Below are positions 55,753 to 60,801 of a stretch of 64,000 nt of DNA, one piece after another (position 1 is the stretch's first letter; every line of letters starts with the position of its first letter). Origin of the DNA: Prosthecobacter sp. SYSU 5D2. GTDB taxonomy: Bacteria; Verrucomicrobiota; Verrucomicrobiia; Verrucomicrobiales; Verrucomicrobiaceae. The notes below the pieces were generated by a model. The model did not search any database, was not told the DNA's origin, and saw nothing but the letters and a program-made list of their open reading frames with translations. The DNA lies in NCBI RefSeq assembly GCF_039655865.1, contig NZ_JBBYXL010000009.1, positions 124,001 to 188,000 on the forward strand. Reading direction: 5' to 3'. The position numbers and the translations under genes were made by a program.

Positions 55753-56670
55753 TTACAGGCCCTCGACCTCCCGGTAGTGCCGCACCGTAAAACCACGCTT
55801 TTTCAGCAGCGGGATCAGCCCCTTGTCTGCGGCAAAGTGGCCGGTGCCCACAAGCACCATCACTTTTTCCCCCTTCTCCAGCATCTCCACCAGGCGGTCC
55901 ATCCAGGCCTCATTGCGGTTATAGAGAAACAGATCCATCAAGTCCGGGAACTTGGCCTGCTCGCGAAAAAGCATCTCCGTCAGCTCATCCAGCTTCCCAT
56001 GTTTCCAGGAGTCAATCATCTTGTCGAATTCCTTGGGCAGGGTGCTCACCTCCCCCAACGTCTGCACCAGCATCTCATTCTGCTGGGCAGGGGTCAGCTT
56101 CGCAAAAAGCTGCAGCTGAAACTCCACGCTCTCCAGGCCGGAAGCCGGCTTCTCATCACGTTTGGCACGTTCTTCAAAATGATGGTCCACCCCCTTTTCA
56201 GGCCGCGCCCCCAATGCCGCATACTCGGTGGCGGTGATCAGCAAGGACACAAACCAGGGACGATACTGGTTCAGGGTGGCCGCATTCATCCCCCGGGTGG
56301 CCGCCCACGCCTTCACACCGGCCCAGGTCTCCGCACTCACCTCAGCCTCCAAGGACTCTCCCGGACCATACGTACCCAGCTCCCGCATCCGCGAGGTCAT
56401 CGAAGGACCGTCTCCCGCGCCCGGCGGCAGCTCAAACACCACCCGGTCAGAGTTCGCATACGCCCCCTCATACGCTGGTGACAGAGGGTAATCAGCATCC
56501 CGCAGGATGTGGATCGTCCCGCACAGATACAGCCGCCCACCGGTCTCCGGCGCGTCCACCACCCACACACTCCCTGCCACCTCCGGGTCCGATACAGGTG
56601 TATCCGGCGTGCGCTGCGCCGCCACGTCAGGGCTGCAGGACGTCAGAAAAAACAGGCAGCCAGCCGCCAT
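55753..56670 (-). CDS. TraB/GumN family protein, probable lipoprotein
   Basis: This protein has 305 residues from the ATG at 56670; an ATG at 56706 adds twelve. The N-terminus MAAGCLFFLTSCSPDVAAQ carries a lipobox LTSC. The TraB/GumN (TIKI-like) motifs are the N-terminal LYLCGTIHILRD and the C-terminal VMVLVGTGHFAADKGLIPLL, the two GxxH elements proposed to bind metal. A conserved Glu lies in DRVVFELPPGAG. Eukaryotic TIKI members are metalloproteases. Bacterial members are mostly uncharacterised, so peptidase activity is inferred. Confidence 0.85.
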   Translation of the reverse strand: MAAGCLFFLTSCSPDVAAQRTPDTPVSDPEVAGSVWVVDAPETGGRLYLCGTIHILRDADYPLSPAYEGAYANSDRVVFELPPGAGDGPSMTSRMRELGTYGPGESLEAEVSAETWAGVKAWAATRGMNAATLNQYRPWFVSLLITATEYAALGARPEKGVDHHFEERAKRDEKPASGLESVEFQLQLFAKLTPAQQNEMLVQTLGEVSTLPKEFDKMIDSWKHGKLDELTEMLFREQAKFPDLMDLFLYNRNEAWMDRLVEMLEKGEKVMVLVGTGHFAADKGLIPLLKKRGFTVRHYREVEGL

Positions 56671-56752
56671 GAGATGACAATAATAAAACACCCCCGATTC
56701 AAACACGGCCAGCGCCCGCCTTGCAACCGGGATATTAACCGCTCCCGCCCCT

Positions 56753-56829: not shown

Positions 56830-57504
56830 ATGACTCACGAAACACCCCTCATCCTGCCCTCCCTCCTTGCTGCCGACTGGTCCAAAGTCGCCGCTGAAGT
56901 GAACCGCGCTGAAGAAGCCGGCGTCCAGTGGCTGCACCTGGACGTCATGGACGGGGCCTTTGTGGACAATATCTCCTTCGGCCCCCAGATGGTCCAGACC
57001 GTGCGCAAATGCACCGGCATGTACCTGGACGTCCATCTCATGATCCACCGCCCGGACCATTACCTGGAGCGCTTTCTCCACGCCGGGGCAGACAACATCA
57101 CCATCCATGTTGAGGCCCGCTATGACACCTCCGTGCTGGAGACCCTGCGCCGCATCCGCGCGGCCGGAAAGCACGCCGGCATCGCCCTGCACCCGGACAC
57201 CCCGTTTGAAGCCGCCCTTCCCTATGTGAACGACATAGACCTCCTTCTCGTCATGACCGTCGTCCCCGGCTTCGGCGGCCAGCCCTTCATGGAAAAGGAG
57301 ACCATGCCCAAGCTCGCCGCCGCCCGCGATTACCGCGATGCCCATGGCTTGAAATATCATTTGGAGGTGGATGGCGGCATCTACCCGACTACCGCCCCCA
57401 TCGCCAAGGCAAATGGAGCCAATCTCTTCGTCTGCGGCACCTCCTTCTTCGGCCCCGCCAATACCCATGAGGCCATGGCCGGGCTGATGACCAGCATTGG
57501 ATGA
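56830..57504 (+). CDS. rpe: Ribulose-phosphate 3-epimerase
   Basis: This 224-residue TIM barrel starts at the ATG at 56830. The open frame upstream to 56509 is antisense to the TraB gene. Catalytic and metal ligands are recognisable: His36 and Asp38 in WLHLDVMDGAFVDNISFGP, His69 in MYLDVHLMIHRPDHYL, VMTVVPGFGGQPFMEKET near 140, and Asp in YHLEVDGGIYPTTAP near 180. The phosphate-binding end is ANLFVCGTSFFG. It interconverts ribulose-5-phosphate and xylulose-5-phosphate in the pentose phosphate pathway. Confidence 0.95.
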   Translation: MTHETPLILPSLLAADWSKVAAEVNRAEEAGVQWLHLDVMDGAFVDNISFGPQMVQTVRKCTGMYLDVHLMIHRPDHYLERFLHAGADNITIHVEARYDTSVLETLRRIRAAGKHAGIALHPDTPFEAALPYVNDIDLLLVMTVVPGFGGQPFMEKETMPKLAAARDYRDAHGLKYHLEVDGGIYPTTAPIAKANGANLFVCGTSFFGPANTHEAMAGLMTSIG

Positions 57505-57621
57505 AAGCTCTCTAAATATATGCAGTATTTCTCACAAGCTCTGCTGCAAAGATGAACTTGACGAAACCGTCACTTGTAAAGGATTCTAACCCTGCAGTCA
57601 GACCCTCATCCAACACACTCC

Positions 57622-58317
57622 ATGAAGACAAAAATCGCATTCATTGCAGCCTCACTCGCCGTCCTGGCCTCTCCCCTGAGGGCGGACATTGTCGAAGCCA
57701 ATGTCACCATCGCGTTGAAATTCTACGCCAACACCACAGATTCGGTCGAAAAAGGTAATTCTGAAATTCTGAATTATCAGACCGGCACCATCAAAAACTC
57801 AGACATCATTGAGGCGGTTAATTTTGCCCTCTTTGAAGATGAAGCAGATGACTATTCGCCCAAATCCAAAATCATCCGCCAGGATGAATTTAATGATAAC
57901 GGCAGCCTTCTGGCCACGAGGTATCTTATCCGCGACAAAGCCAAGGAGGCGGACCTGGATGTCACGAATCTCATTGATATTGATTCCCTCGAGGAAGTCG
58001 TGAAATACAAGTTTTCCACCGTCACAGGCGCTGGCACGGTCAACCTTATCAGCAACAGCAGATACCAGTTTCTTTTTGATCCGGAATCCCCGGAAACCAG
58101 CGAGGAACTCGACCTGTTTGGCATTGACCGTTCCACGATCAAAGTGGTGATGGTCAAGAGCACCGAAAACTTTGTGGATCTTCTCAGCTTCAGTTCAAAA
58201 GTCAGCGGCTATGGCTACTTCTTCCCCCTTAAGTTTGATGACTTTTATGAAGGGATCGCCGAAGGCACCATCAAAGTCTCGGGAGCCAAAGTCTTCCCGA
58301 CACCGCCAGACACGTGA
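57622..58317 (+). CDS. Secreted protein of unknown function, paralogue A
   Basis: This 231-residue protein has a signal peptide (MKTKIAFIAASLAVLASPLRA). The mature part is beta-rich and acidic, with no Cys and no recognised motif. It clearly resembles the protein at 59206: a shared MKTK start, KGN.E near 40, a central DNGS...YLIRDKAKEADLDV block near 90, G-x-G-T-V-N, and the ending EGTIKVSGAKVFP against ASGSVKFSGAKII. The pair is separated by a HEAT-like gene. A strong terminator follows 10 bp after the stop, so this gene is transcribed separately from the next. Function unknown. Confidence 0.75.
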   Translation: MKTKIAFIAASLAVLASPLRADIVEANVTIALKFYANTTDSVEKGNSEILNYQTGTIKNSDIIEAVNFALFEDEADDYSPKSKIIRQDEFNDNGSLLATRYLIRDKAKEADLDVTNLIDIDSLEEVVKYKFSTVTGAGTVNLISNSRYQFLFDPESPETSEELDLFGIDRSTIKVVMVKSTENFVDLLSFSSKVSGYGYFFPLKFDDFYEGIAEGTIKVSGAKVFPTPPDT

Positions 58318-58327
58318 TTGTTTCTGC

Positions 58328-58366
58328 AAGCGGTGCCTGTCTTTCTTGGACAGGCACCGCTTTTTT
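58328..58366 (+). terminator. Rho-independent terminator
   Basis: AAGCGGTGCCTGTC pairs with GACAGGCACCGCTT around a 7 nt loop and runs into TTTTTT. Because it lies inside the longest possible frame of the next gene (open from 58314), it rules out that early start. Confidence 0.95.
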
Positions 58367-58382
58367 ATGCTTACATCCCGCC

Positions 58383-58988
58383 ATGCAAATGAAAAAGACC
58401 CTGTGGCTGCTGGTGGCCATCCCCCTCGTTTCCCTGGTCCTCTGGGCGGCCTACAAAGCAGGAGGAGACAGTGCGCGCACAGCGGTTTCTGCGCCAATCA
58501 ACCCGGCCGAAGATCCGGCCCCACCTGCTCCACGCAAAAAGCCCCTTCTTGGACAACCTGCCCAGGTGACATCAGTGACGCCTCTGAATCCAGCCGAACA
58601 ACAAGCCGCATTGGATGAAGGCGAACTCATTTCAGACCTCTTTGATGCTGCCACCGAAGGCACGCCTGAAAAAACAGAAGCTGTCTATGCCGCACTGAGC
58701 CATCCGAACGATGCCGTGCGGGAAGGAGCCCTGGATGCCATCATCCAGCACATGGGGCGGGAGTCCATTCCCAGGCTGCGTGCGGCCTTAGCGGCCGCCA
58801 GAACGCCGGAGGAAAAGACCCGCCTCACCGAAGCCATCGAATTCATCGAACTGCCCACATTAAGCGAAATCCGAGGAGCTTCGGATGCCCCGCGCCCCCG
58901 GCGCGAACAGGTCACCGGCCAGAAACCCGCCCGGCCCGACTCCCCTCCCTTGGTCCGCAAAAAAAACCCGCCTTTGCAGCAGGAGTAA
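58383..58988 (+). CDS. Membrane-anchored HEAT-like repeat protein, unknown function
   Basis: This protein has 201 residues from the ATG at 58383; an ATG at 58389 is equally good. An N-terminal transmembrane anchor (MKKTLWLLVAIPLVSLVLWA) is followed by a Pro/Ala-rich linker. A helical-repeat region covers about 85-165 (EAVYAALSHPNDAVREGALD, AIIQHMGRESIPRLRAAL, EKTRLTEAIEFIELPTL), which reads as HEAT/armadillo-like pairs. The tail is Arg/Pro-rich. It sits between two paralogous secreted proteins, each with its own leader. It may be a scaffold or assembly factor for them, but there is no direct evidence. Confidence 0.65.
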   Translation: MQMKKTLWLLVAIPLVSLVLWAAYKAGGDSARTAVSAPINPAEDPAPPAPRKKPLLGQPAQVTSVTPLNPAEQQAALDEGELISDLFDAATEGTPEKTEAVYAALSHPNDAVREGALDAIIQHMGRESIPRLRAALAAARTPEEKTRLTEAIEFIELPTLSEIRGASDAPRPRREQVTGQKPARPDSPPLVRKKNPPLQQE

Positions 58989-59114
58989 CAAGGCCCGCGA
59001 TCCCCCCTCGAATCCGACATTTGTCTGGACGCCGACAGAAAAATCCTGTCCCGACCATGCATAATGCCCAGCTGATTCATATAGAACAATAACCCCGTCT
59101 TTTAGAAAAGAGCA

Positions 59115-59141
59115 GTAACCCCGCCCGGTTTTTGGGGCTAC
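59115..59141 (+). other. Leader hairpin before secreted paralogue B
   Basis: GTAACCCC and GGGGCTAC pair (one mismatch) across an 11 nt loop, 64 nt before the ATG at 59206. The AACCCCG sequence also occurs 26 nt earlier. It is a possible RNA structure or regulator site. No match to a known riboswitch was recognised. Confidence 0.3.
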
Positions 59142-59205
59142 TTAAATCAAGGCCCTGCTCTGCCTGCGAATTTCTCCAGGCCGCAGCGAATGGCTCCCCC
59201 CACCC

Positions 59206-59850
59206 ATGAAAACCAAATCCCTACTCGCCGCCCTTCTTTTTGCCAGCACCGCTGCAGCCTCAGCAGATGAAACTGTGGAGATTAACATGCTCTTTACCCT
59301 GAAAGTCCATGAGCAGAATGCCACTGTCACAAAAGGGAACATTGAGACTGATAGCTTTCGGGTTTTCAGCGTGAAGACCTTCGATATCATTCAGATGATT
59401 GGCCTGAAGGAAGGACGTCTTTTCAGCAAAAAAGCCCGGCTCCTGGCTCAACTTACTTTTGATAACAATGGCCAGACCGGCTCCTCCTTCCTGATCCGTG
59501 ACCCAGGCCAGAGTGATCTGGTTGTCTCGTCATACTTTCCCAGCAACACCCCCTATGCCGTCACTAAATCCAAACTTAATTTGGACAAAAAAACTGGAAC
59601 AGGCAATGTCGTCGGCCAGGCTACGATAGACGTCCAACTGAATGGCGAGGATGAGGGGTTTTATCTCATCGGTCCTCTCAAAGCCAACGTCCGCGATGTA
59701 CAGGCTCCCGCAGCGGCAGATGTCATCGTGCAGCTAACCAATCTGACCATCAATGCCAGCGGGGGCAGCAAAATCGGTGCGGCCCCGAATACAAAGAACG
59801 GGTATGCCTCCGGCAGCGTTAAATTCTCCGGGGCCAAGATCATCAAATAA
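59206..59850 (+). CDS. Secreted protein of unknown function, paralogue B
   Basis: This 214-residue protein has a signal peptide (MKTKSLLAALLFASTAAASA). It shares its plan with the protein at 57622: VEINMLFTLKVHEQNATVTK then GNIE, FSVKTFDIIQMIGLKEGRLF, TFDNNGQTGSSFLIRDPGQS, and the ending YASGSVKFSGAKIIK. The mature domain is beta-rich with no catalytic signature. Overall identity by eye is low apart from the shared blocks, so the two have diverged since duplication. The EamA transporter gene follows after 33 bp and could be cotranscribed. Confidence 0.75.
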   Translation: MKTKSLLAALLFASTAAASADETVEINMLFTLKVHEQNATVTKGNIETDSFRVFSVKTFDIIQMIGLKEGRLFSKKARLLAQLTFDNNGQTGSSFLIRDPGQSDLVVSSYFPSNTPYAVTKSKLNLDKKTGTGNVVGQATIDVQLNGEDEGFYLIGPLKANVRDVQAPAAADVIVQLTNLTINASGGSKIGAAPNTKNGYASGSVKFSGAKIIK

Positions 59851-59883
59851 TTCCGCATTCAGATACTGGCAGAGCTGCCCGGG

Positions 59884-60801
59884 ATGTGGCAGAGGCAGCG
59901 CGTGCGTGATTACCTGCTGCTGCATCTCGTCATCCTGGCCTGGGGCTTCACCGCCATCCTGGGCAAGCTCATCACGCTTCCTCCAGTCGAGGTCGTCCTG
60001 TGGCGCACCGCCATGGCTGCCGCCGGTTTCGCCATCCTGGCACGCTGCCGGGGCCGCCGCCTTAATGTCCCGCGCAGTGAGCTGTGGAAAATGCTCGGCG
60101 TCGGTTCCCTCCTTGGGCTGCACTGGGTACTTTTCTTCGCCTCCGCCAGGCTGGCCACCGCAAGCGTCAGTCTCGCCGCCCTGCCCACGGCCATGCTCTG
60201 GTGCAGCCTCATCGAGCCCTATGTGGACGGCACCCGCCGCTGGCGGCCCTGGGAACTTGCTGTGGGAGCAGTCATCATGGGGGCCGTGTGGATGATCTAT
60301 GAGGTGGAGTTGCAATATTGGTTAGGCTTCACAGTCGGCATCGCCGCCGCCTTCCTGGCCGCACTCTTTGCCGTCATTAACAAGCAGCTCGTGGCCCAGT
60401 GGCATTACAGCGTCATGGGTTATTACCAGATGCTCGGCGCGCTCCTCATCACCGTCCTCGCCTGGCTCGTCACCCCGCCTTTTCACCTCGCCATTCCTGG
60501 CGCGGGGGATGCTTTCTGGCTCTTCATCCTGGCCAGTATTTGCACCGTCGGTGCTTATGCTGGTTACATGGTCGTGCTGCGCCGCATGTCTGTCTTCACG
60601 GTGAATGTCGTTTACAATCTGGAGCCCGTTTATGGCATCATCCTCGCGGTCCTCATCTTCGGCTCGCAGGAGCACATGAGCGGCGGCTTTTACCTCGGGG
60701 CCGGCATCATCATCGGCAGCGTCCTGCTGGTACCATGGCTTAACCGATGGATCACCGGAGTACGCACACCCGCCGCTAAAGTGCCGCCTTTCGTGCCGTA
60801 A
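59884..60801 (+). CDS. EamA/DMT-superfamily transporter
   Basis: This 305-residue inner-membrane protein has ten predicted helices in two EamA repeats. The first repeat starts YLLLHLVILAWGFTAILGKL with the family W-G, and the second near LGFTVGIAAAFLAALFAVIN. Conserved LEPVYGIILAVLIFGSQEHM lies near 255, the usual E-P at the start of helix nine, followed by a GAGIIIGSVLLV helix. Members export amino acids or metabolites, and the substrate is unknown. The amidohydrolase gene starts 8 bp after its stop, suggesting cotranscription. Confidence 0.88.
   Translation: MWQRQRVRDYLLLHLVILAWGFTAILGKLITLPPVEVVLWRTAMAAAGFAILARCRGRRLNVPRSELWKMLGVGSLLGLHWVLFFASARLATASVSLAALPTAMLWCSLIEPYVDGTRRWRPWELAVGAVIMGAVWMIYEVELQYWLGFTVGIAAAFLAALFAVINKQLVAQWHYSVMGYYQMLGALLITVLAWLVTPPFHLAIPGAGDAFWLFILASICTVGAYAGYMVVLRRMSVFTVNVVYNLEPVYGIILAVLIFGSQEHMSGGFYLGAGIIIGSVLLVPWLNRWITGVRTPAAKVPPFVP

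Follow-up and report, generated by a model that had tools for sequence, protein, structure and literature searches.

In the genome of Prosthecobacter sp. SYSU 5D2, two genes for small, presumably secreted proteins, A and C, flank a gene for a membrane-anchored protein, B, and the question is whether the three belong to any recognisable system. They lie in a window of 64,000 nucleotides, the whole stretch of DNA that was analysed. The initial annotation could assign A and C to no family and considered the locus a possible small envelope system. Two families were defined in this analysis: H, the family of B, and S, the secreted proteins found beside H genes. Judged from sequence, A-B-C is best read as a copy, by now strongly diverged, of an envelope module that consists of two genes and occurs in the Verrucomicrobiales.

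The features of the locus are as follows.

57505..59883, no strand: stretch between rpe and an EamA gene, containing A-B-C; in four relatives the two flanking genes adjoin each other
57622..58317 (incl. stop codon), plus strand: A, predicted secreted S-family protein of 231 aa; paralogue of C, match to the S profile
57622..57684, plus strand: putative signal peptide of A, residues 1-21, with LRA preceding the cleavage site; assigned by eye
57892..57963, plus strand: NDNG...LIRD...DLDV block of A; invariant columns of the A/C alignment, within the stretch matched to S
58264..58290, plus strand: C-terminal strand motif of A, GTIKVSGAK; from the A/C alignment, compared with S endings
58328..58362, plus strand: intrinsic-terminator-like hairpin, then a T run, between A and B; position common to 16 of 29 S-H pairs
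58383..58988 (incl. stop codon), plus strand: B, H-family protein of 201 aa; similarity to H relatives
58398..58454, plus strand: hydrophobic anchor of B, about residues 6-24; by eye, with an aligned anchor in other H
58659..58838, plus strand: HEAT_2-like stretch of B, residues 93-152; E 4.3e-4, below cut-off
59206..59850 (incl. stop codon), plus strand: C, predicted secreted protein of 214 aa and paralogue of A; alone not significant against S
59206..59265, plus strand: putative signal peptide of C, residues 1-20, with ASA preceding the cleavage site; assigned by eye
59461..59526, plus strand: DNNG...LIRD...DLVV block of C; A/C alignment
59812..59838, plus strand: C-terminal strand motif of C, GSVKFSGAK; A/C alignment

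Genes A, B and C and their surroundings

The MKTK starts, the (D/N)NG...LIRD...DLxV block and the GxxKxSGAK ending described in the initial annotation are all present in the reading frames and in the A/C alignment. A and C align end to end with 58/225 identical residues (26%, blastp E 5e-13), and in a search of the whole 5.87 Mb genome each matches only itself and the other (E ~3e-10). This relationship is far beyond chance, and the two are true paralogues, as had been proposed; their dN/dS is 0.40, at a saturated distance. Read by eye, both have a putative N-terminal signal peptide without a lipobox, as do S members on the same kind of reading.

Neither A nor C is matched directly in any of the 67 other genomes of the family, so both looked like orphans. 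No match was found for A in viral contigs or plasmids, for C in phages, or for the A+C alignment in genome contigs. The scan of the class returned one borderline partial match, a 714-aa frame in G414 (E 5.7e-4), which is taken as chance since A alone scores that frame at E 0.39. AlphaFold models on two-row alignments are poor (mean pLDDT 40.8 for A, 53.8 for C), and Foldseek with the model of pLDDT 53.8 returned meaningless matches only (best E 0.025, rmsd about 20 A).

The longest reading frame of B opens with a GTG at 58314; the ATG at 58383 is the more likely start. Behind its N-terminal hydrophobic anchor, B possesses a Pro/Ala-rich linker and a stretch that matches HEAT_2 (Pfam PF13646) at E 4.3e-4 with 20.9 bits. 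The Pfam gathering cut-off is 27.7, and B is therefore called HEAT-like here, not a member of HEAT_2. Anchor and match together bear out the earlier description of a membrane-anchored helical-repeat protein.

A is located upstream of B on the same strand at a distance of 65 nt, and 217 nt separate B from C. Directly 3' of A, a perfect inverted repeat of 14 nt makes up the hairpin, with a T run behind it; the element ends 20 nt before B. With this terminator-like element after A and the gap between B and C, the three genes do not form a simple single transcription unit, which fits the earlier remark that each gene has its own leader. Sigma-70-like promoter sites occur in 57300-60100 at chance level (2 found, 1.7 expected).

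Here, the 2,379 nt with A-B-C separate rpe from the EamA gene, the aligned ends of which are 12-97 nt apart in the four relatives with both genes in the stretch read (G013, G018, G017 and G014; G019, G016 and G049, which have no rpe there, were left out). The triplet is an insertion between these two genes, and a repeat search of 57300-60100 found no repeat pair bounding it. A and C have the lowest G+C among 40 reading frames of the window compared. Low G+C was rejected as evidence of a foreign origin, since S genes are generally below the median G+C of their neighbours (10 of 10 modules compared; H genes in 6 of 10). Divergent from rpe, on the minus strand at 55753-56706, lies a gene matching the TraB/PrgY/GumN family (E 1.5e-68), and the two genes are adjacent in relatives, too.

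The H family and the position of A and C in the S family

B finds relatives, by phmmer down to 9e-13 and in one whole genome at E 1.8e-11, and an alignment of the anchor and the HEAT stretch shows that the conserved H columns are kept in B. Three relatives are present in its own genome, and matches occur in 11 other genomes of the family; the one in G009, inside a 3222-aa frame, is probably due to chance. Of 16 H proteins, 13 match HEAT_2 with an E of at most 0.01. Among the H proteins seen, the anchor is preceded by a short N-terminus only, and none has a cytoplasmic signalling domain. Nine loci hold the better relatives of B (L058-L066), and in eight of them a secreted protein of ~280-350 aa lies beside H, the ninth (L064) being at a contig end. 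B is the way into the S family; its relatives nearly always adjoin a secreted protein. At L063:5759-6610 (G016:C4) the S gene is split into two frames and the H gene intact, owing either to gene decay or to an error in sequencing. Two contigs of metagenome-assembled genomes titled Akkermansia muciniphila (L109 and L110), names that may be wrong, also carry H genes, one of them with a divergent S.

The S proteins were compared with A and C after their signal peptides had been cut away. The A+C alignment matches 22 S sequences in hhalign at P 4.3e-5 with a score of 37.9 (at most 21.8 among 300 column-shuffled decoys, and 11.5 when reversed), and 38 S sequences at P 7e-6 with a score of 41.8 (best of 200 column-shuffled decoys 22.7). 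A second group consists of five short S-like proteins, at L182, L184, L188, L190 and L202, which are of S type by position, size and weak similarity only. With these five, A+C reaches 31.4, where the best decoy has 23.3; with S and the five combined it reaches 44.2 over 197 columns, a score computed without decoys. The score thus climbed as more distant S members joined, from 37.9 over 41.8 to 44.2.

A alone reaches 40.9 in the profile comparison, where 200 shuffles give no more than 23.7, and 22.0 bits in hmmsearch, where 4000 shuffled versions of A and C stay at or below 14.9. C on its own sequence is not significant against S in either method and was rejected as a member on that basis; it enters the family via its paralogue A. 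Genome scans with the S profile reported neither protein at E 0.001 or better. The S protein scoring best against the A+C profile is a solo S of the window's own genome (G000:C1:78742), at 13.0 bits barely over the best shuffle (12.3). Its ending, GSIKISGAK, resembles those of A and C, while other S members end in EGSxSxxAG. Furthermore, A has an H gene adjoining it on the same strand, namely B.

When 60 H proteins are placed in a tree, B clusters with those from the five loci with short S-like proteins (support 99/92). This grouping is suggestive only, since the branch of B measures 2.66 changes per column. Downstream of the divergent H genes at three of these loci (L184:3351-5501, L188:128-2359 and L190:1-2175) lies a gene for the same large protein (HVFGK...GTKALLDLNQ...FDCPSCAWPDPDR), which we take to resemble a molybdopterin oxidoreductase of the YdeP/FdhF kind.

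A, and through A also C, is related to S. The two are therefore not private to the locus, as it had seemed, and are best described as short, diverged members of a larger family. That A-B-C belongs to the S-H module is close to certain.

Linkage, terminators and selection

In the order (386 genomes), S is present in 29 genomes at 46 places and H, at E 1e-10 or better, in 37 genomes at 58 places. All but one of the 29 S genomes contain H, the exception being G004 with a weak S and no H hit. The overlap has p 1e-33 if genomes are taken as independent, which they are not, kinship being uncorrected. An H gene adjoins S at 35 of the 46 S places; ten places lack it (for one of the S surroundings, at G040:C13, ~1.5 kb were seen on each side) and one is at a contig end. 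Scattered homologues without a HEAT-like neighbour, the outcome that would have spoken against a common system, are hence not what is observed. The count of 35 is biased towards linkage, as many S sequences of the profile had first been found via H. Outside the genus, among the 23 S places not first found via H, 17 adjoin H and six do not; in one of the 17 (G536), S and H are 800 nt apart.

Seen from H, 52 of the 58 places have an S-type neighbour, i.e. 47 S (A counted for B) and the five short S-like proteins. Three H genes are at contig ends (G036:C389, G444 and G642:C104). The remaining three (G642:C10, G611:C56 and G054:C181) have no S or S-like neighbour, and tblastn found no S fragment there. 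The scan of the phylum (387 genomes) detected S in seven genomes, four of them already seen; the additions, G141 (S-S-H), G283 (S-H plus a solo S) and G102 (H-S-H), are all of one class with the order.

S precedes H on one strand in nearly all pairs, G285 being a divergent exception. Arrays occur as S-H-S-H in the window's own genome (L058), as S-H-S-H-S in G013 (L060) and as S-H-S in G017 (L061). The order S-H-S of A-B-C recurs only in G017 and within the longer array of G013, so the triplet, whose conservation the initial annotation had proposed to check, is not the conserved unit, which is the S-H pair. The idea of a small envelope system is upheld by the linkage as regards the HEAT-like partner, and needs correction as to its composition, which is a pair.

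Solo S genes are present in genomes with H elsewhere, in G000, G040, G041, G044, G630, G611 and G283. At G044:C263 (L081) a solo S is followed by a gene (AEVFEARG.RE.DLPGGKEADGIRGDFVLRSDKVEA) that also follows the S-H pair of G020:C29 (L062), as if H had been lost at a site matching the latter.

Of 29 S-H pairs, 16 have a strong terminator-like hairpin no more than 130 nt behind S, compared with 4 of 86 further co-directional pairs in these loci (Fisher p 1.3e-8; hairpin score and threshold are our own, related pairs are not independent, and the 4/86 is 5/87 minus one hairpin pair that proved to be an S gene). The hairpin is absent from 13 pairs, including each of the nine whose genes are separated by at most 34 nt or overlap by the starts of their longest reading frames; among the 20 pairs with a wider gap, 16 possess it. 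Since hairpins are confined to the wider gaps, two layouts can be distinguished, a tight pair and S-terminator-H, and A-B has the latter. The hairpins after several S genes of different loci and genomes, in L058, L059 and L060 (first S-H gap), have in common an arm CATCTGC or CACCTGC with GCAGGTGG, as though they had been copied along with the module or belonged to a more widespread family of hairpins.

Close pairs of S relatives have dN/dS values of 0.18-0.26 (one solo S pair 0.20) and H relatives of 0.12-0.23, with mdh at 0.12; these ranges refer to relatives, A, B and C being without close ones. By these values the S and H genes of the relatives are real and constrained, and purifying selection acts on both.

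Possible roles of the pair and comparison with known systems

Tentatively, at a little less than even likelihood, we favour H as a docking or assembly partner for S, with S in excess and one H for several S. S proteins (here A and C), rich in predicted beta strands, would be exported by the Sec pathway. H (here B) would be anchored in the inner membrane by its N-terminal helix and, by way of the Pro/Ala-rich linker, carry its short HEAT domain on the periplasmic side; the positive-inside rule is the basis for this probable placement. H would bind S during or after export. The terminator after S would let only some transcripts reach H, leaving S in excess, and one H would serve several S proteins in trans. 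Action in trans is suggested by solo S genes occurring almost only in genomes with H elsewhere. Combined with the terminator, this points to much S and little H, as for an exported product with a limiting membrane partner, although an excess of S would be no general rule, since 13 of 29 pairs are without a strong terminator. Topology, physical binding, expression ratio and docking role are what we infer here. The S places without an adjacent H (10 of 46, the weak S of G004 included) count against docking, as do the poor models of A and C, the failure of C alone to match S, the S-profile scans that miss both proteins and the HEAT_2 score of B under the Pfam cut-off. Rather doubtful is the farther-reaching version, a hitherto undescribed system of the Verrucomicrobiota envelope, where a membrane-tethered periplasmic HEAT protein would be the dedicated, shared export or assembly factor for diversifying, abundant secreted beta proteins, their ratio set by the terminator.

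The same linkage and compartments would be expected of a receptor-type module, in which S binds ligands or senses surfaces and H relays or regulates the state of S at the inner membrane, with no role in export or assembly. The diversity of S, whose members are 18-28% identical to the first row of the S alignment, would suit binders of different things. We nevertheless regard such a module as unlikely, as the H proteins seen have no cytoplasmic domain through which to signal and no constant regulator gene was noticed as a third partner in an unsystematic look. Less probable still is a toxin-immunity pair, S being a secreted antibacterial toxin and H its membrane-anchored immunity protein, even though the S-then-H order on one strand in nearly all pairs, the sporadic distribution, the tandem arrays and the diverse S would all agree with it. 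An immunity gene should adjoin every toxin gene, but ten of the 46 S places have no adjacent H; such solo S persist, one pair of them under purifying selection (0.20). Moreover, one would not expect a terminator ahead of an immunity gene, H is a broad family shared among S proteins and not matched to each of them, PADLOC has no match for the five proteins tried, and Pfam recognises no toxin domain.

It is very improbable, finally, that A and C are unrelated to S and stand beside B by accident as a recent, private secreted pair. That no other genome of the family was matched, that C alone is not significant and that the S scans miss both would be explained in this way. Against it, the A+C score is about twice that of the best decoy and rises with distant S members, A occupies the same place upstream of an H gene, on the same strand and with the same terminator, and B itself is an H protein. 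Docking or assembly remains our preferred reading of the pair.

Genes that appeared to be orphans thus become members of a conserved two-gene module without a name in the libraries searched. Pfam has no convincing family for S (searched with A, C and 11 members, then 10 proteins), nor does NCBIfam for S members; sequence searches of solved structures with the S and H profiles gave no hit, and no library searched names S (PHROGs queried with A, B and C, PADLOC with five proteins). No description of the S-H pair was found in the part of the open-licence literature seen, which is no proof of absence. The case illustrates how a fast-diverging secreted protein can be recognised via its slower partner. 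For the cell envelope of Verrucomicrobiota, about which little is known, S-H offers a pair that is small and amenable to testing. Should H indeed dock S, this would be a periplasmic use of HEAT repeats, for which we can name no precedent and which would be worth a structure.

Among known systems, HEAT_2 (PF13646) is shared by most H proteins and approached by B, which remains under the gathering score; H differs in that it has one short HEAT stretch behind anchor and linker and is paired with S. Secreted toxins with a membrane immunity protein form a general kind that S-H resembles in gene order and sporadic distribution, and from which it is set apart by persisting solo S, the terminator before H and the lack of a toxin domain or PADLOC match. 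Exported proteins encoded beside a membrane-anchored periplasmic partner or chaperone are another general kind. Gene order, predicted compartments and a putatively ratio-setting terminator are alike in S-H, whereas S and H have no sequence relation to a known exported protein or chaperone in Pfam, NCBIfam or among solved structures. We call S-H an unnamed family pair of this latter kind, an exported protein and its membrane-anchored partner.
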